A stretch of 39,575 nucleotides of DNA from Betaproteobacteria bacterium (lineage in GTDB: Bacteria > Pseudomonadota > Gammaproteobacteria > Burkholderiales > Ferrovaceae), in NCBI GenBank assembly GCA_028868905.1, contig JAGWTQ010000009.1, positions 1 to 39,575 of the forward strand, read 5' to 3'. Positions 2,817 through 33,550 of this stretch are shown here, one piece after another (within the stretch, counting starts at the first letter, position 1; the number at the start of each line of letters is the position of its first letter). A program made the position numbers and the translations under genes. The notes under the pieces are model-generated. The model did not search any database. It had not been told where the DNA came from and worked only from the letters and a program-made list of their open reading frames with translations.

Positions 2817-4496
2817 TCAGCGGGGCTTTGCCCAGGAATCGCGCAGCGTCACGGCCCGGTTGAACACCGGGCGACCGTCCTGGGAGGCGGCACCGTCCAT
2901 CGAGAAGTAGCCGTTTCGCTCAAACTGGAATTTCTCGCCGTCCCGGGCTTGGGCCAGGGCAGTTTCGATCCTGCAGTCCGGACGCAACTGTACGGAATGG
3001 GGGTTGAGCAACGGCCGGTAGTCCTCGGCGCCGCCTGGGTTGGGGTCACTGAACAGGCGGTCGTAGAGACGGACTTCCGCCTCGCTGGAATGTTCCAGCG
3101 ACAGCCAGTGGATGTTCCCTTTCACTTTGTATGTATCGGCGCCAGGCGTTCCGCTGCGGCTGTCCGGATGGTAAGTGCAGCGCACTTCCGTCACGGCCCC
3201 GGTGTGCGGGTCGGTGGTGAATCCGGTGCATTTGACCACGTAGGCATAACGCAACCGAACTTCTGCGCCGGGCGAAAGGCGGAAAAATCCTTTCACGGGT
3301 TCGGCCATGAAATCTTCACGCTCGATGACGAGTTCGCGCGAAAAAGGGATTGCGCGGCTGCCCCACTCCGATTTCTGGGGATGGTTGGGCACTTCGCACT
3401 GTTCCACCTGCCCTTCCGGATAGTTTTCGATCACCAGGCGCACTGGGTCGAGTACGGCAATGCGACGGATTGCCCGTTCATTGAGGTCGGTTCGCAGACA
3501 GTCTTCCAGCACGCTCACGTCAATCAGGCTGTCCGCCTTCGACACGCCGATGCGATCGCAAAACAAACGGATTGATTCGGGCGTGTATCCTCGTCTGCGC
3601 AAGCCCACCAGCGTTGGCATGCGGGGGTCGTCCCAGCCGCTCACATGCCGCTCCTCCACCAGTTCCAGCAATTTGCGCTTGCTCATCACGGTGTATGTGA
3701 GATTGAGGCGCGCAAACTCGTACTGGTGGGGCTGCCCGGGGACCGGGGTATTTCCCACCACCCAGTCGTAGAGGGGGCGGTGGTCTTCGAACTCGAGGGT
3801 GCAAATGGAATGCGTGATGCGCTCTTCCGCATCGGAAATGGCATGCGCATAATCGTACATGGGGTAGATGCACCAGGCCGTCCCGGTCCTCCAGTGCGGT
3901 ACGTGGCGAATCCGGTAAATGGCAGGGTCGCGCAAGTTGAGATTGGGCGAAGCCATGTCGATCTTCAGGCGCAGCACATAGGCGCCATCCCCAAACTCAC
4001 CGGCCCGCATGCGACGGAACAGGTCCAGGCTTTCCTCCGCAGGCCGGTCGCGCCACGGGCTGTTTTTTCCGGCCTCGGTGAGGTTACCGCGGTAAGCCCT
4101 GATTTCCTCGGCGCTCAGGCCATCCACATAGGCTTTTCCGGCCTTGATGAGACCTTCGGCATACTGGTAGCAGCGCTCGAAATAGTCGGAAGCGTAGTAC
4201 AGGTGAGACCCCCAGTCGAAGCCCAGCCAGTGCACGGTGTCCAGAATGGAGTCGGCGTATTCGGTGTCCTCTTTGGCCGGGTTCGTGTCGTCGAAACGCA
4301 TGTGACACACGCCGCCAAAATCCCGGGCAATGCCGAAATTGAGGCAGATGGACTTGGCATGGCCTATATGCAGGTAGCCGTTGGGTTCCGGCGGAAAGCG
4401 CGTGGCAATCCGGCCGCCGGTTTTTCCGCTGGCAAGGTCCTCTGAAACGATGTTACGGATGAAATTGGTGGCAGGAGCGGGCGTAGGATTGGACAT
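2817..4496 (-). CDS. glnS: Glutaminyl-tRNA synthetase
   Basis: 559 aa; TRFPPEPNGYLHIGHAKSICLNFG, FDDTNPAKEDTEY, VMSKRKL (KMSKS-like). Confidence 0.97.
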   Translation of the reverse strand: MSNPTPAPATNFIRNIVSEDLASGKTGGRIATRFPPEPNGYLHIGHAKSICLNFGIARDFGGVCHMRFDDTNPAKEDTEYADSILDTVHWLGFDWGSHLYYASDYFERCYQYAEGLIKAGKAYVDGLSAEEIRAYRGNLTEAGKNSPWRDRPAEESLDLFRRMRAGEFGDGAYVLRLKIDMASPNLNLRDPAIYRIRHVPHWRTGTAWCIYPMYDYAHAISDAEERITHSICTLEFEDHRPLYDWVVGNTPVPGQPHQYEFARLNLTYTVMSKRKLLELVEERHVSGWDDPRMPTLVGLRRRGYTPESIRLFCDRIGVSKADSLIDVSVLEDCLRTDLNERAIRRIAVLDPVRLVIENYPEGQVEQCEVPNHPQKSEWGSRAIPFSRELVIEREDFMAEPVKGFFRLSPGAEVRLRYAYVVKCTGFTTDPHTGAVTEVRCTYHPDSRSGTPGADTYKVKGNIHWLSLEHSSEAEVRLYDRLFSDPNPGGAEDYRPLLNPHSVQLRPDCRIETALAQARDGEKFQFERNGYFSMDGAASQDGRPVFNRAVTLRDSWAKPR

Positions 4497-25166: not shown

Positions 25167-25954
25167 GCACTTCAAGTCCCGCTGCCGGCATTGCCCTGGT
25201 CACCGGAGCGGCCCGGCGTCTGGGCAAAAGCATGGCACTCGCCCTTGCCGCAGCAGGATGGGATCTTGCCATTCACTGCCATCGCTCACACGAGGAAGCG
25301 CTTGAAACCGCCGATGAGGTGAAACGTCTGGGGCGTCGCGTCCTGGTCCTGCAGGCAGACCTGTCCTCCCCAGAAGAAACAGGAAAGTTGCTGCCCGAAT
25401 GCAGGGCACGCCTGGGTCTTCCGCATTGCCTCGTCAACAATGCCTCGCTGTTTGAATTCGACGACGGGAACAACTTCCAGCCGGAGCTCCTGCAACGCCA
25501 CATGGCCGTCAACCTCAGCGCGCCCCTGTTGCTCTCGCGCGCGCTTTTTCATGCCCATCGCGAAGCCTGCCCTGACGGACCCAATTCTTCGCCCGGCGTC
25601 ATCATCAACCTGCTGGACCAAAAGCTGATCAACCTGAACCCGGACTTCCTTTCCTACACGCTATCCAAGGCAGCCCTGGAAACGGCCACCTACGCCCTGG
25701 CGCGCACCTACGCACCCTGGCTGCGCGTGGTCGGGTTGGCACCCGGCATCACGTTGCCATCCGGCGCCCAGAGCGAAGCGGAGTTCGTGCGTGCCCACCA
25801 CCAGACCCCGCTGGGCCATGCCTCCTTCCCGAAAGATATCGCACAGGCAGCCGTTTACCTGGCTTCCGCTTCCGCTGTCACGGGAACCACCCTGTACGTG
25901 GACGGCGGACAGCACCTGCAGCCCTCCCGCAGGGACATCATGTTCCAACCCTGA
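25163..25954 (+). CDS. Short-chain dehydrogenase, pteridine reductase/FolM-like
   Basis: 263 aa; ALVTGAARRLGKSMALALAAAGWDLAIHCHRS (Rossmann with R), LVNNASLFE, YTLSKAALE, GTTLYVDGGQHL. Confidence 0.82.
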   Translation: MSTSSPAAGIALVTGAARRLGKSMALALAAAGWDLAIHCHRSHEEALETADEVKRLGRRVLVLQADLSSPEETGKLLPECRARLGLPHCLVNNASLFEFDDGNNFQPELLQRHMAVNLSAPLLLSRALFHAHREACPDGPNSSPGVIINLLDQKLINLNPDFLSYTLSKAALETATYALARTYAPWLRVVGLAPGITLPSGAQSEAEFVRAHHQTPLGHASFPKDIAQAAVYLASASAVTGTTLYVDGGQHLQPSRRDIMFQP

Positions 25955-25979
25955 CGCCGACGTTTCATTGCGGTATAAT
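25951..25979 (+). promoter_or_regulatory. Predicted sigma70-type promoter of tRNA-Thr
   Basis: CTGACG-N17-TATAAT ending 15 nt before the tRNA 5' end. Confidence 0.65.
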
Positions 25980-25994: not shown

Positions 25995-26070
<76 letters not shown>

Positions 26071-26099: not shown

Positions 26100-26126
26100 T
26101 AAAGTTTTTTCCGGGTTGACCGATAA
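26100..26126 (+). promoter_or_regulatory. Predicted sigma28 (FliA)-type promoter
   Basis: TAAAGTTT (26100..26107)-N11-ACCGATAA (26119..26126); 15 of 16 positions match the enterobacterial FliA consensus TAAAGTTT-N11-GCCGATAA with exact spacer. Confidence 0.82.
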
Positions 26127-26160
26127 TTATCCCGATAAGGGGGATAAGGACAACCAACAC

Positions 26161-27006
26161 ATGCAGGCCGCAGAAAAAAAGGATTTGCACGCCTGGGCCA
26201 ACTACCTGGGGCAAGCTGACATTCCGGTCCTGGCTGAAACCGGGCGCCTGCTTGCCGAACTGCACGAAAATGACGACGACCTGAGCTCGCGCCAGGTGGC
26301 CAGGGTCGTGCTGAAGGATCCCCTGATGACCGCCAAGCTGCTGCGTTTCCTGCAGCAGCACAAGCCCAGAAACCAGCGTGCCGAAATCGCCCTGGTGGAA
26401 CAGGCCATTCTCATGCTGGGCATCGAACCTTTTTACCGCAACGTGCAGCCGCAGCCCACCGTGGAATTGCTGCTGGAGAGCCAGCCTGAAGCCCTGACCC
26501 ACCTCATGCAAGTGGTGGGCCGCGCACACCGTGCGGCAGACTACGCCATCCACTGGGCAGCACGCCTGAACGACCTGCATTTCGACGAAGTCTATGTCGC
26601 CGCACTGCTGCATGATCTGGCTGAAATCCTGCTATGGTGTTTTGCCCCGGCCGACATGCTCCGCATTCGGCACGACCAGCTCCAGGATAAAACCCTGCGC
26701 AGCCGAGCTGCCCAGGAACAGGTGCTGGGCTTCTCCCTCGCCAACCTCCAGTTGCTGCTGGCCCAGCAGTGGTCGCTGCCGCAACTGCTCCTGAATCTCA
26801 TGGAGGATGCCCAAGCCCAGAATTCCCGAGTCCGAAACGTCGAGCTCGCTGTCAACCTGGCGCGCCATTCCGCCAACGGTTGGAACGATGCGGCGCTTCC
26901 CGACGATTACCGTGACATCGGAGCCCTGCTGCATCTTTCCGTCGACAAAGTGATGGAACTGGTGTGTCCCCCGGGGACGGCCCGGGATGGAACCCCCACG
27001 CGTTAG
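26161..27006 (+). CDS. HDOD-domain signalling protein
   Basis: ORF track start 26116 lies inside the predicted promoter; ATG at 26161 with AAGGA upstream preferred. IPVLAETGRLLAEL, VVLKDPLMTAKLLRFL, VYVAALLHDLAEILLW. Confidence 0.88.
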   Translation: MQAAEKKDLHAWANYLGQADIPVLAETGRLLAELHENDDDLSSRQVARVVLKDPLMTAKLLRFLQQHKPRNQRAEIALVEQAILMLGIEPFYRNVQPQPTVELLLESQPEALTHLMQVVGRAHRAADYAIHWAARLNDLHFDEVYVAALLHDLAEILLWCFAPADMLRIRHDQLQDKTLRSRAAQEQVLGFSLANLQLLLAQQWSLPQLLLNLMEDAQAQNSRVRNVELAVNLARHSANGWNDAALPDDYRDIGALLHLSVDKVMELVCPPGTARDGTPTR

Positions 27007-27013
27007 GTGACCT

Positions 27014-27601
27014 GTGCATTTCCCGGCTACCCGGCTCATTGCCGTCGGCGCATCCACCGGCGGAACAGAAGCCCTCAAGGAATTCCTGAGCCATCTGCCT
27101 CCGGAAATCCCGGGGCTGTTGATCGTGCAGCACATGCCTGAAACGTTTACGCGATCTTTTGCGGCACGTCTCAATGATCTATGCCGCATCCGCGTGGAGG
27201 AGGCCGCGCAGGACATGCCCGTGCTTCCGGGCCACGCCTACGTCGCACCGGGCCACTCCCACCTGCTGGTGGAAAAGTCCGGTACCTCCTACCGCACCCT
27301 GCTCAGCAAAGACCCGCCTTTCAATCGCCATCGTCCGTCCGTGGATTTGCTCTTTCAGTCGGTTGCCCGGGTGGTGGGAAAAAATGCCACCGGCGTCATT
27401 CTCACAGGCATGGGCAAGGACGGCGCCAGCGGCATGCTGGAAATGAAGCGGGCCGGTGCCTACAATTTTGCCCAGGACGAAGCAACCTGCACCGTGTTCG
27501 GCATGCCCAAGGAAGCCATTGCCCTGGGCGCAGTGGACGAAATCCTGCCCATCGAAAAAATGGCGCTGCGGGTGGCCCAGCATTGCCTGGTTCCCGTCTG
27601 A
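27014..27601 (+). CDS. CheB-type methylesterase catalytic domain, no receiver domain
   Basis: 195 aa from a GTG start; [12 protein letters not shown] (Ser), [19 protein letters not shown] (His), [13 protein letters not shown] (Asp). Confidence 0.92.
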
Positions 27602-27629: not shown

Positions 27630-28823
27630 ATGAAAAAAATTCCCGTCAGCGATTTGCGTTTGGGAATGTATGTCCAGGAGATCTGCGGCAGCTGGATGGA
27701 TCACCCGTTCTGGAAAAACTCCTTCAAGCTGGATTCCCTGGACGATCTCCACACGTTGAAAAGCAGCGTGCGGGAAGTCTGGATCGACACCCGCAAAGGC
27801 CTGGATGTGGCTGCCGATGCGACCGTCCTGACCATGGAGGAAGCAGCAACCCAGGCACAGGAGGTGCTTGAAGCTTCCGAAGCCGCGAATGAAACCGCAA
27901 TCCTGATACCGCTGCATGAGGAAGTGGCGCTCGCCGAGATCCTGAAAGGCCGCGCCAAAACTGCCGTGATGTCCATGTTCAGCGACGTGCGCATGGGCCA
28001 TGCGCTGCACGCCGACATGGCCTATCCCATCGTGGAAGAAATTCACCAGTCCATCTCCCGCAACACCGACGCCCTGGTCAGCCTGGTTCGTCTTAAAAAC
28101 AAGGATGACTATACCTACCTGCATTCGGTCGCCGTATGCGCGCTGATGATCGCGCTCGGCAAGCGCCTGGGCCTGGACGGCGAAACACTGCGCCACGTGG
28201 GCATGGCGGGCCTGCTGCACGACGTGGGAAAAATGCTGGTTCCGGAGCACATTCTGAACAAGCCCGGGCGCCTCACCGACGAAGAATTCGAAATCGTCAA
28301 ATCCCACCCGAAACTGGGGCACGAAGTGTTGCTCCGGTCTCACGGCTTGAGCGAAGCCACGCTCGATGTCTGCCTGCACCATCATGAACGCATGGATGGG
28401 GGGGGATACCCTGACCGGCTGGCTGGCGAAAACCTTTCCTTGTATGCCAGAATGGGGGCCGTCTGCGACGTCTACGACGCCATCACGTCTGAGCGCTGTT
28501 ACAAGAAAGGATGGGAACCGGCAACGGCCATCCACAAAATGGCGGAATGGCAGCGCGGCCATTTCGACCTCAGGATTTTCCACGCCTTTGTAAAAACAGT
28601 GGGCATTTATCCTGTTGGCACTCTGGTCCGTTTGAAATCCGGCCGCCTGGGTTACGTCGTGGAGCAAGGCAAGCAAAGTTTGACGGCCCCGGTCGTCAAG
28701 GTGATTTTTTCGGAGCAGGCCAATGCCCACATTTTGCCGGAACTGGTGGATTTGTCCGAAGCGCAGGATGCCGTCCTCAGCAGTGAAGACCCTCAGCAAT
28801 GGGGCCTTGCCCCGCTCTTCTGA
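27630..28823 (+). CDS. HD-GYP domain protein with DUF3391-like N-terminus (putative c-di-GMP phosphodiesterase)
   Basis: In frame with ORF 27456..28823, ATG at 27630; KKIPVSDLRLGMYVQEI, GLLHDVGKMLVP, LHHHERMDGGGYPDRL. Confidence 0.94.
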   Translation: MKKIPVSDLRLGMYVQEICGSWMDHPFWKNSFKLDSLDDLHTLKSSVREVWIDTRKGLDVAADATVLTMEEAATQAQEVLEASEAANETAILIPLHEEVALAEILKGRAKTAVMSMFSDVRMGHALHADMAYPIVEEIHQSISRNTDALVSLVRLKNKDDYTYLHSVAVCALMIALGKRLGLDGETLRHVGMAGLLHDVGKMLVPEHILNKPGRLTDEEFEIVKSHPKLGHEVLLRSHGLSEATLDVCLHHHERMDGGGYPDRLAGENLSLYARMGAVCDVYDAITSERCYKKGWEPATAIHKMAEWQRGHFDLRIFHAFVKTVGIYPVGTLVRLKSGRLGYVVEQGKQSLTAPVVKVIFSEQANAHILPELVDLSEAQDAVLSSEDPQQWGLAPLF

Positions 28824-28826
28824 AGC

Positions 28827-30287
28827 ATGAAGCCGGCCAACGGTCGGACCCCTCCCTCCGACACGTCCCTTGACCCGGAAGACTGGGACGCCTTGCGATC
28901 CCAGGGGCACCGGATGCTCGACGACATGCTGGATTACCTGCAACACTTGCGCACCCGCCCCGTGTGGCAACCCATTCCGCCGGGCGTGCGGGAGCGCTTC
29001 CACGAACCGCTGCCGCAGGATCCGGAAGAACTGGCCGATCTTCACCAACGCTTCATGACCGAAATTCTCCCCTACGCAGTGGGCAACGCCCACCCCGGAT
29101 TCATGGGATGGGTGCATGGCGGCGGCACCGCGGTGGGCATGCTGGCGGAAATGCTGGCGGCCGGACTGAATGCCAACCTGGGCGGCCGCGACCAGGTGCC
29201 GGTTGCAGTCGAACGGCAGATCACAAACTGGATGCGGGATCTGTTCGGATTTCCTGAACGGTCCAGCGGCCTTTTTGTCACGGGCACCTCCATGGCCAAT
29301 TTCATCGCCGTCCTGGTGGCCCGGACCGCCGTGCTGGGTCCCGCTGTCAGGGAAAACGGCGTGGCTGCCGCCACCCGCCCGCTCACTGCCTACGCTTCCG
29401 CCGGCGCCCATGGCTGCATTGCCCAGGCGCTGGATATTTCCGGCCTCGGTTCCGGCGCCCTGCGCCGCATCGCGGTCAACGAACGTTTCCAGATCGACTT
29501 GCAGCAGCTGGAACAGGCCATTCTCGCCGACCGGGAAGCAGGCTTTCAGCCCTTCATGGTGGTGGGAACGGCCGGCACCGTGGATGTAGGCGCGCTGGAC
29601 GACCTGGGAGGGCTGGCGGCCCTGTGCCGCCGCCAGGGGCTGTGGTTCCATGTGGACGGAGCTTTTGGCGCACTCGCGCGGATGTCCCCCGAACTGGCCC
29701 CGCGCGTGGCTGGCATCGAGCTTGCCGACTCCATCGCTTTTGATTTCCACAAATGGGTGCAGGTCCCCTATGATGCCGGTTTCATTCTGGTCCGGGACGA
29801 AACCTTGCATCGGCAGACCTTCGCATCGCCAGCCGCCTACCTCCAGCGGGAAACCCGTGGTGTTGCCGCTGGCTCCCCCTGGCCCTGCGACTATGGCCCC
29901 GACCTCTCGCGAGGCTTCCGGGCCCTGAAAACCTGGTTCACTCTCAAGACTTACGGAACGGCTCGCCTCGGTGCCGTCATCGCACAAACCTGCGCGCTGG
30001 CACGCGACCTGGAAACGCGCATCCGGAAACACCCCGAACTGGAATTGCTGGCCCCGGTGGCCCTCAACATCGTGTGTTTCCGTTACCGCAGCGCTCACCC
30101 TGATGAAACAAATGCACGCCTCGTGGTGGCCCTGCAGGAATCGGGGGTGGCCGTACCGTCAACCACACGCATACGGGGAGTCCTGGCCATCCGCGTGGCC
30201 ATCGTCAATCATCGCACCCGCCTTGAGGACCTCGACCGGCTCTTGAAAGCCGTCCTGGCCTTCGGCGCCAAGGAAGCCCATCAATGA
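28827..30287 (+). CDS. Group II PLP-dependent amino acid decarboxylase (aromatic-L-amino-acid decarboxylase-like)
   Basis: 486 aa; HPGFMGWVHGGGT, VGTAGTVDVGALDDL, FHVDGAFGAL, DFHKWVQVPYDAGFILVR (PLP lysine). Confidence 0.92.
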   Translation: MKPANGRTPPSDTSLDPEDWDALRSQGHRMLDDMLDYLQHLRTRPVWQPIPPGVRERFHEPLPQDPEELADLHQRFMTEILPYAVGNAHPGFMGWVHGGGTAVGMLAEMLAAGLNANLGGRDQVPVAVERQITNWMRDLFGFPERSSGLFVTGTSMANFIAVLVARTAVLGPAVRENGVAAATRPLTAYASAGAHGCIAQALDISGLGSGALRRIAVNERFQIDLQQLEQAILADREAGFQPFMVVGTAGTVDVGALDDLGGLAALCRRQGLWFHVDGAFGALARMSPELAPRVAGIELADSIAFDFHKWVQVPYDAGFILVRDETLHRQTFASPAAYLQRETRGVAAGSPWPCDYGPDLSRGFRALKTWFTLKTYGTARLGAVIAQTCALARDLETRIRKHPELELLAPVALNIVCFRYRSAHPDETNARLVVALQESGVAVPSTTRIRGVLAIRVAIVNHRTRLEDLDRLLKAVLAFGAKEAHQ

Positions 30288-31492
30288 CTCCGGAATTTCA
30301 TGGCATGGCGGCTCTGATGACCCAGGCCTTCCGCGGCGTCGACCTCACGCCCATCGGCAACGAGTTGATCGAACGTGCGGGAAAACATCCCGGCGTTGAA
30401 AGTGCAGCCACGTTGCTGGACTTATCGATTCTGCTGCACCTGAAAGGAAGCCATGACATTGCCCTGAGCGTGCAGGCACAAGCGTTGCAATTGCGCCAGA
30501 TCTACACCCTGCCCGCCGCCCGGGAGCCTTCCATCCGCCTCCTGGCCTTCATGACGCCGGGAGACCTGTCGGCCAACACGCCGCTGGAATTCCTGGCACA
30601 AGGCTCCGACATCGAACTCACGCTGCTTTATTTGTCGCCCACTCTGCCCTTCCCTCAGCAGGTTCCCGAACACGATGTGGCTTTTGTGGCCGTGGGCGAA
30701 TCGGAATCCAGTCAGCCGTTGCTGCGCGCGTTGTCCGAGCTGGCAAAAATCTGGCCTCGCCCTGTGCTCAATGCGCCTGAACACATCGCACGCTTGTCGC
30801 GCAGTGAAGTGAGCCGGTTGCTGTCCGATGCCCCAGGTGTTGCCATTCCCCATGCCGCCCGTATCTCGCGGGAGCAACTGCAACGGCTTGCCGCCGGCGA
30901 AAACCTGGCGGGCATGCTGCCGGACGCCTCAGGCTACCCCATCATCGTGCGGCCGCTCGATTCGCATGCCGGGAAAGGCCTGATCAAGGCGGAAGCCGCC
31001 GAATCGCTGGTTAGCTATCTCGAAGTTCATTCCGAACCCGAGTTTTTCGTGGCGCGTTTTGTGGACTACCGGGGAGACGACGGGCTCTTCCGAAAATACC
31101 GCATCGTGCTGATCGACGGAAAACCTTACGCCAGCCACATGGCGCTTTCCGATCACTGGATGATCCATTACCTGAACGGAGGAATGACGGAGTCGGCCGA
31201 AAAGCGTGCAGAAGAAGCACTCTTCATGGAACGGTTCGATACCGGCTTTGCAGCGCGTCACAAACAGGCCCTGGAAGCCATCCATGAGCGCATGGGTCTG
31301 GACTACCTGGTGATAGACTGTGCGGAAACCTGCGACGGTGAGCTTCTGGTCTTCGAAGTGGACAGCAGTGCCGTGGTTCATGCCATGGACCCTGAAGACC
31401 TGTTTCCCTACAAACGACCCCAAATGGAAAAGGTGTTTTCCGCCTTCAAGGCCCTGCTGCAAAAGACAGCGGCCCGTCCATGTCTGACCTGA
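30284..31492 (+). CDS. ATP-grasp domain protein (putative carboxylate-amine/thiol ligase)
   Basis: 402 aa; YPIIVRPLDSHAGKGL, FRKYRIVLIDGKPYASHMALSDHWMIHYLNGGM, LLVFEVDSSAVVHAMDPEDLFPYKRPQM; 4-nt overlap with the decarboxylase. Confidence 0.85.
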   Translation: MTPEFHGMAALMTQAFRGVDLTPIGNELIERAGKHPGVESAATLLDLSILLHLKGSHDIALSVQAQALQLRQIYTLPAAREPSIRLLAFMTPGDLSANTPLEFLAQGSDIELTLLYLSPTLPFPQQVPEHDVAFVAVGESESSQPLLRALSELAKIWPRPVLNAPEHIARLSRSEVSRLLSDAPGVAIPHAARISREQLQRLAAGENLAGMLPDASGYPIIVRPLDSHAGKGLIKAEAAESLVSYLEVHSEPEFFVARFVDYRGDDGLFRKYRIVLIDGKPYASHMALSDHWMIHYLNGGMTESAEKRAEEALFMERFDTGFAARHKQALEAIHERMGLDYLVIDCAETCDGELLVFEVDSSAVVHAMDPEDLFPYKRPQMEKVFSAFKALLQKTAARPCLT

Positions 31493-32859
31493 CCAGCCTG
31501 TGGCTGACGAAAGACGGCGACGCCCGCATCGCCGTCGATCCCGCAACCGGCCGCAATCCCTACGGCTGCCCGCCCAAACCTGACCCCGCCCTGCTGGACT
31601 TCGGCTCCGCAACGGCTTCTGTCATCTCCGAAACGGCCTTTGCTGCCGCGGACCGTTTGCGCCACCTTCTCCTGCCTGCAGGTCGGGCCGTTCCGGACAT
31701 GGCTGACCTGTACCGTGAAACGGCCCGCATCGGCGACGAGCTGCTCCACCTTTGCGGCCTGCCTGCCCGTGAAGGCGTCAGGGTTTTTCTCACGGCATCC
31801 GGCACGGACGCCCATCGCCTGGCCTCTGAATGGACCTGGGCCGCTTCCGACAGGCCACCGTGCATCCTGGCCATGGAACCGAACGAGTCGGGACGGGGCG
31901 TGCCGGAAGCCCTGTCCGCACCCTGCCATGGAACGCTGCTGCCCATTCGGGTGCGCGACGACAGCGGCCTGTTGCGCCCGCAAGCAGCGGTCGATGACGA
32001 TGTCCTTGCCGCAGCCCGTCAGGCCTTTTCCGAACACCGTCCGTTTTTTGCCGTGCTCACCGACGTGAGCAAGACGGGACTTGTGGCACCTCGCAGGGCG
32101 GTGCTGCGGGAACTGGAACGACACCTCGGGCAACCCGTTCCGGTGCTGGTGGATGCCAGCCAGTTCCGGCTCGCGCCCGACTCCCTGAAAGCCTACCTGG
32201 ACCAGGGCGACCTGGTGGCACTGACCGGATCGAAATTCGTCGGCGGGCCGTCTTTCTCCGGCGCCCTCCTGGTCCCGCGCAATTTTCCGGCGCATTTGTC
32301 CATACCGCCTTTGTCACCGCTGCCGCTGGGGCAGCTACTGCGATGGGAAGCCGCCCTGGCTGAGCTGCGGCAATTCAGGGCACTTCCGGAAAACGACGTC
32401 CGGGATTTTTTTGGGAAATTTGCATCGGCAGTGACGGCTCACATCGCGCATCATCCCCAACTGGAAGCGTTGCCTTCCGGAGCGCCAAGCAGAGACCTGC
32501 CAGCGGAAAGCCCGGAGTGGGACAGTCTGCCAACGATTTTCCCCTTTCTGCTGAGCCATCCGGGAACGCAGGCCAGCGACCTGCTGGTGCCGCAGGAGAT
32601 GCAGGCCGTGTTTCGCCGCCTGCCCGAAATCCGTTCATCCGGTGCGGAAGGTGCAATACGCGGCCGGTTGGGGCAGCCGGTGGACTGCGGCTTGCGTCAC
32701 AACAAACCCATAAGCGCGCTGCGGCTGTGCGTCAGCGCCCGTCATGCGGTCCACGCAGTCAACAACGGGCCCCGGGGTGTGGAACAGGTGGTGGCTCAGG
32801 CCTGCGCCGTTCTGGACGAAGCGGCGAGAATCGCCGGAAGGATCAGGGAGAAACCCTGA
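31480..32859 (+). CDS. Fold-type-I PLP enzyme, class V aminotransferase/cysteine desulfurase-like, substrate unknown
   Basis: 459 aa; VRVFLTASGTDAHRLA, VLVDASQFRLAPDSLKAYLDQGDLVALTGSKFVGGPSFSGALLVP (Asp and Schiff-base Lys context); 13-nt overlap with the ATP-grasp gene. Confidence 0.75.
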   Translation: MSDLTSLWLTKDGDARIAVDPATGRNPYGCPPKPDPALLDFGSATASVISETAFAAADRLRHLLLPAGRAVPDMADLYRETARIGDELLHLCGLPAREGVRVFLTASGTDAHRLASEWTWAASDRPPCILAMEPNESGRGVPEALSAPCHGTLLPIRVRDDSGLLRPQAAVDDDVLAAARQAFSEHRPFFAVLTDVSKTGLVAPRRAVLRELERHLGQPVPVLVDASQFRLAPDSLKAYLDQGDLVALTGSKFVGGPSFSGALLVPRNFPAHLSIPPLSPLPLGQLLRWEAALAELRQFRALPENDVRDFFGKFASAVTAHIAHHPQLEALPSGAPSRDLPAESPEWDSLPTIFPFLLSHPGTQASDLLVPQEMQAVFRRLPEIRSSGAEGAIRGRLGQPVDCGLRHNKPISALRLCVSARHAVHAVNNGPRGVEQVVAQACAVLDEAARIAGRIREKP

Positions 32860-33550
32860 CGAGACCGTTGCCGTAAGCCGTGCCGGCAACCAGCCGGCCG
32901 GAAGCGGTCCGGATCTGGACACTCTGCCCTTCGGCCGCGTTGCCCATGGCCTGTCCGTCGGTACTGATCCTGAAACCGTTGCCTTCCACCCGGACCTGGA
33001 CGCTTTGCCCCTGGCGTATGGCATAAGGATCTCGCAGCATGTCCCGGCGCAGCACCTGCCCCGCCCCGAGCCCCTGCTTGACCACCTTGCCAATGGCCTG
33101 GGACGGATCCGTCAGGATGTCGGGCCGGGTTGCCTCGCCGTTTTGTTCCGCGATGTCATCGGCTGACAGGACTTTTTCGGCAGACAAAGGTTTGCGCGCC
33201 ACCAGCATGACGGTGCGAAGCGTCACCTGCACGGGCACGTAAATGGTCCAGGGGGCACCGGTGTCAGGTTTGGCGCAGCGAATACCAACGGAACCGTGCC
33301 CCAGGAGATGGCCGCCAGGCGGAATAAAGGGCTCCGGCGTGGGGCAGGAAGCCAGGTTCAGCCGGGGATCCAGGTGCTCCACCGAAATGACGGCCTTGCC
33401 GGGAAAGGAGCGGATCTGCCCCTGGACGAAATCGGTTACCGTCCGCAGCAGGGCTTCCTGGTCCTGCCCCCCTTCCGGAAAGGCGGAAAAACTGGCCAGC
33501 ACGAGCAGGCCGGATATCCATCGCATCGATTTCATGGGCGCTATTGTCAA
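32843..33550 (-). CDS. flgA: Flagellar basal body P-ring formation chaperone FlgA
   Basis: 235 aa with signal-like N-terminus; SADDIAEQNGEATRPDILTDPSQAIGKVVKQGLGAGQVLRRDML, GQSVQVRVEGNGFRISTDGQAMGNAAEGQSVQIR. Confidence 0.93.
   Translation of the reverse strand: MTIAPMKSMRWISGLLVLASFSAFPEGGQDQEALLRTVTDFVQGQIRSFPGKAVISVEHLDPRLNLASCPTPEPFIPPGGHLLGHGSVGIRCAKPDTGAPWTIYVPVQVTLRTVMLVARKPLSAEKVLSADDIAEQNGEATRPDILTDPSQAIGKVVKQGLGAGQVLRRDMLRDPYAIRQGQSVQVRVEGNGFRISTDGQAMGNAAEGQSVQIRTASGRLVAGTAYGNGLVRVSP

Follow-up and report, generated by a model that had tools for sequence, protein, structure and literature searches.

The question raised by this locus is whether the sequence at positions 26100–26126, lying between a tRNA-Thr gene and a gene for an HDOD-domain protein, is a promoter for the flagellar sigma factor FliA (sigma28), and which genes such a promoter would place under flagellar control. 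We addressed it in the window, the 39,575-nt stretch of contig JAGWTQ010000009.1 analysed here, in the assembly to which the window belongs, and at orthologous loci of related bacteria. The site reads TAAAGTTT-TTTCCGGGTTG-ACCGATAA on the + strand. Compared with the FliA consensus TAAAGTTT-n11-GCCGATAA (PMC2859248), the −35 element TAAAGTTT (26100–26107) is identical at 8 of 8 positions and its TAAAG is kept in relatives, the spacer TTTCCGGGTTG (26108–26118) has exactly 11 nt, and the −10 element ACCGATAA (26119–26126) agrees with GCCGATAA at 7 of 8 positions, its first base being the one that deviates. The consensus scan therefore confirms the match at 15 of 16 positions that a preliminary description of this DNA had reported. 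No other site with at most three mismatches is present on either strand of the window. Given the usual distance between a FliA −10 element and the start point, transcription on the + strand would be expected to begin at about 26133 (26132–26134). We consider it highly probable that the site functions as a class 3 (late) flagellar promoter.

The main doubt concerns the sole mismatch, an A in place of G at 26119, which the preliminary description had passed over as to its position: the equivalent base is a G in all 43 FliA sites recognised in relatives. Yet two other sites in this genome also depart from G here: that of fliC has a T, and that of a PAS-receptor gene has an A. Elsewhere in the window, the flgA/flgB intergenic region holds no FliA site at up to six mismatches with spacers of 10–12 nt, in agreement with the preliminary description; none is expected there, because class 2 promoters use sigma70 together with FlhDC (PMC9387321). 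The other genes of the run that follows the HDOD gene have no internal FliA promoter, their best matches showing 7–8 mismatches.

The presence of fliA in the genome had been set beforehand as a test of the promoter reading, and a profile search of the assembly (1.75 Mb, 88% complete) found the gene above cut-off (TIGR02479, 275.8 bits). A gene for FlgM is also present (PF04316, E 7.2e-15) and has a FliA-type site of its own. The pattern scan of the whole assembly, proposed earlier as a way of finding out whether the motif marks flagellar genes, did mark them. Three sites have at most one mismatch, upstream of flhDC (a perfect match), of fliC and of the HDOD gene of the window, compared with about 0.04 expected for uniform base composition; with at most two mismatches 11 were seen versus 0.9 expected on the same assumption, and two-mismatch sites precede flgMN, motAB, the MCP gene after motB and a PAS-MCP gene. 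The identities of the genes behind these sites were verified by Pfam.

The perfect consensus, the only one found in this genome, lies at 4232–4258 of another contig (locus L185, G000 contig C86), between flhDC and the divergent cheR and ahead of flhDC. As flhDC is the class 1 master regulator, the position of this site suggests a positive feedback of FliA onto flhDC. Clarke and Sperandio reportedly described, in 2005, a FliA input to flhDC in EHEC (reference listed in PMC9387321).

Best matches among named genomes include Ferrovaceae and Ferrovum MAGs, which probably places the window in Ferrovaceae-like Nitrosomonadales, among relatives of iron oxidisers. Conservation of the site was assessed at 77 named HDOD orthologue loci from Ferrovaceae, Gallionellaceae and their kin. 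A FliA site with at most three mismatches stands about 50–90 nt ahead of the HDOD start in 23 of the 77, whereas 200 permuted motifs gave a mean of 0.09 such sites and a maximum of two, the reverse strand gave none, and the rest of the same loci predicted 0.17. When up to five mismatches are allowed the number rises to 43, all of these sites lying at −90 to −45, those with four or five mismatches being called by motif and position together; the proven FliA promoter of Escherichia coli aer, TAAAGATA-n11-GCCGACAT, is itself four mismatches away from the consensus (PMC2859248). The 36 sites with at most four mismatches fall into 19 spacer clusters with divergent spacers, and the logo of the relatives' sites is TAAAG[A/T]TT-N11-GCCGATAA. 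Congeners and sister genera carry it at about −60 to −79 from the HDOD start, with one mismatch in G002 and G021, three in G003 and G006 and four in G004 and G018. In six loci inspected in Gallionellaceae, Nitrotoga, Methylotenera and Nitrosomonas, four of which have the site, the neighbours of the HDOD gene are unrelated, and therefore the promoter would not be maintained through linkage to flagellar genes. This conservation in 43 of 77 relatives supports the earlier reading of a late flagellar promoter; it is the decisive evidence, and stronger than what was available to the preliminary description.

Several deep branches of the HDOD tree carry the FliA site, and its distribution needs 13 changes, which fits an old site that has been repeatedly lost, although it may instead have been gained repeatedly. 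Speaking against the promoter reading, no recognisable FliA site precedes HDOD in 34 of the 77 relatives. Loss of fliA was rejected as the cause, as 47 of the 50 genomes examined for it, mostly without the site, carry fliA. One Gallionella/Ferrigenium clade (n = 11) has no FliA site before HDOD. Seven loci of a Gallionella/Ferrigenium clade lacking the FliA site (L110, L111, L114, L124, L125, L132 and L137) share a motif like GAAAATTGCTAGTATATTGGC about 50–58 nt ahead of the HDOD start, which is perhaps a replacement promoter. The site is also absent from genus g2 (G005, G012 and G022), in which HDOD directly follows flgA on the same strand, so that the gene remains with flagellar genes by another route. 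In family f1, fliA is above cut-off in 16 of the 17 genomes with a strong HDOD orthologue and missing in 6 of the 8 without one; this co-occurrence, seen in mutually related genomes, is supporting evidence only.

The first gene downstream of the site encodes a bare HDOD protein of 281 aa (26161–27006, + strand; PF08668, E 5.5e-22), weakly similar to Cj0248 (E 0.0027). Its listed start, TTG 26116, falls within the FliA promoter, and had been judged too early on first description. The start is likely ATG 26161, which is preceded at a distance of 10 nt by the ribosome-binding site AAGGA (26146–26150, + strand) and from which the orthologues align. The next gene (27014–27601, + strand) begins with GTG, 7 nt past the end of HDOD, and encodes a CheB methylesterase domain of 195 aa with its GASTGG motif (PF01339, E 8.1e-67). 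The domain covers residues 9–185 and aligns solely to the C-terminal half of CheB, a departure from the canonical architecture of an N-terminal receiver followed by a C-terminal methylesterase. No CheB other than this receiver-less protein was found in G003, G004 and G011, where CheA is present. The same holds for the window's own genome, but there CheA is missing and the incompleteness of the assembly (88% complete) may play a part. If it is truly the sole CheB, chemotaxis adaptation would proceed without phosphorylation control of CheB. The third gene (27630–28823, + strand) encodes a protein with DUF3391 and HD-GYP domains (PF11871, PF13487), a predicted c-di-GMP phosphodiesterase. Its HDVGK (residue 197) and HHERMDGGGYP (residue 251) motifs are intact, and FliA control of c-di-GMP breakdown is therefore predicted, as with YhjH (PMC5300878).

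Three further genes on the + strand form a cassette. A PLP-dependent decarboxylase gene (28827–30287; PF00282, E 6e-66) begins 3 nt past the HD-GYP stop and is followed by a gene for an ATP-grasp (RimK-like) protein (30284–31492), with weak matches to TIGR00768 and to RimK/LysX-type proteins in the PDB. The third gene (31480–32859) is convergent with flgA (32843–33550, − strand; PF13144); its uncharacterised product has no match in Pfam, NCBIfam or PDB, and may be PLP-dependent. The cassette (28827–32859) has been kept together in many further genomes across the order, other families included. In Candidatus Gallionella acididurans (L119) it lies about 5.5–8 kb from the HDOD gene, on the opposite strand, and the HDOD gene of that locus has a two-mismatch FliA site. 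An anti-phage defence origin of the cassette was considered and rejected, with no PADLOC match.

From sequence we infer how the promoter would act, where it would start, how far its transcript would extend and what the proteins would do. Once the hook-basal body is complete and FlgM has been exported, FliA RNA polymerase would initiate at about 26133, and the transcript would cover HDOD, the receiver-less cheB and the HD-GYP gene. The decarboxylase, ATP-grasp and putative PLP cassette is probably also on this transcript, because the gaps within the run are at most 28 nt or the genes overlap (28823/28827, 30287/30284, 31492/31480). The encoded proteins would work on the flagellum once it is complete: CheB would demethylate receptors, the HD-GYP protein would lower c-di-GMP, the role of YhjH/PdeH in E. 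coli, and the HDOD protein would be an output protein of motility signalling. The promoter would in this way bring chemotaxis-adaptation and c-di-GMP-lowering functions into the late regulon.

How far the transcript extends is the point on which a variant of this explanation differs from it. The window and genera g1 and g8 share one gene order, namely HDOD, cheB methylesterase, HD-GYP, PLP decarboxylase, ATP-grasp, third cassette gene and convergent flgA, with variants in which cheB (genus g3) or HD-GYP (some genomes) is absent, and from this conserved order and the spacing we infer a single operon. The variant accepts the FliA promoter as real and has its transcript end after HDOD, or after HDOD-cheB-HD-GYP, the cassette being expressed separately and having a non-flagellar role. 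It is favoured by the occurrence of the three genes elsewhere as a unit and by the fact that outside f1 HDOD is mostly apart from the cassette, with the FliA site still present; sigma70-like matches are found within the gene run, and the HD-GYP gene contains, at 28679–28700, a stem-loop with T-rich sequence after it. Set against these observations are the abutting or overlapping cassette genes, at the same three junctions, and the order from HDOD to flgA, conserved across genera. We give this shorter transcript a little less than even chances.

Transcription of HDOD could also come from further upstream. The tRNA-Thr(CGT) gene (25995–26070, + strand; ARAGORN) has a sigma70-like promoter, CTGACG-N17-TATAAT (25951–25979, + strand; 10 of 12 positions in a consensus scan), and no terminator-like site was found between the tRNA end at 26070 and 26100, which makes this promoter a possible source of read-through into the HDOD operon. 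If such read-through were the main source of its transcription, the FliA site of this lineage would contribute little or survive as a relic, a proposal also favoured by the tRNA-Thr near HDOD in several relatives and by the −10 mismatch at a base invariant among them. However, G002 (REEB123) keeps the site at one mismatch with no tRNA within 1.5 kb, and many genomes keep it in other contexts; moreover, 15 of 16 retained positions are unexpected for a decaying site, and fliC in the same genome departs from the consensus at the same −10 base. We therefore regard this explanation as improbable. A chance resemblance without function was rejected by comparison with permuted motifs, with the reverse strand and with background rates, and is extremely unlikely: dinucleotide-shuffled windows contain a mean of 0.11 sites with at most three mismatches, and about 11% of shuffles have one, but only about 0.04 sites matching at 15 of 16 positions are expected genome-wide, and the position-specific conservation before orthologues far exceeds chance.

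A real, conserved FliA promoter is thus by far the best reading of the site. The element belongs to a known type, in a location that we did not find described: the open-licence papers searched do not mention FliA control of any HDOD gene. A broader proposal, for which we see the arguments as evenly balanced, is that HDOD proteins of this type have long been part of the FliA regulon of Nitrosomonadales (Ferrovaceae, and Gallionellaceae including Nitrotoga) without being recognised as such, possibly as a conserved output of flagellar signalling, and that in Ferrovaceae-like bacteria this gene drew into the late flagellar regulon the only CheB, which is receiver-less and hence outside CheA phosphorylation control, and a small-molecule-type enzyme cassette. 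A fliC-type promoter before one HDOD family in many iron- and nitrite-oxidising bacteria and their kin would link this family directly with the programme of late flagellar genes, and the gene run would connect chemotaxis adaptation and c-di-GMP breakdown with flagellar completion in bacteria that are uncultured or hard to grow. HDOD proteins have repeatedly been found to affect motility, and the shared promoter makes a clear genetic test possible.

In E. coli, class 3 FliA promoters precede fliC, tar-tap-cheRBYZ and motAB-cheAW (PMC9387321). The genome studied here resembles this set in the two-element architecture of the sites with their 11-nt spacer and in the presence of sites before fliC, motAB, flgMN, receptor and cheB genes. 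It differs from it in that an HDOD gene comes first in the run of the window, and in that cheB lacks the receiver domain and is found alongside an HD-GYP gene, not with cheR, cheY and cheZ. A flagellar sigma factor that drives a c-di-GMP phosphodiesterase favouring swimming has a precedent in YhjH, which FliA controls in E. coli and Pseudomonas putida, BifA being partly under FliA control in P. putida (PMC5300878); unlike YhjH, the predicted enzyme of the window combines HD-GYP with DUF3391 and is encoded third in a run led by HDOD. Finally, the HDOD domain is shared with GsmR of Xanthomonas campestris, CJ0248 of Campylobacter jejuni and SadB of Pseudomonas, all three of which affect flagellar motility (PMC6543031, PMC11004494, PMC4114195). 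GsmR is a response regulator under Clp and SadB carries a YbaK domain, whereas the protein of the window is a bare HDOD protein preceded by a FliA promoter.
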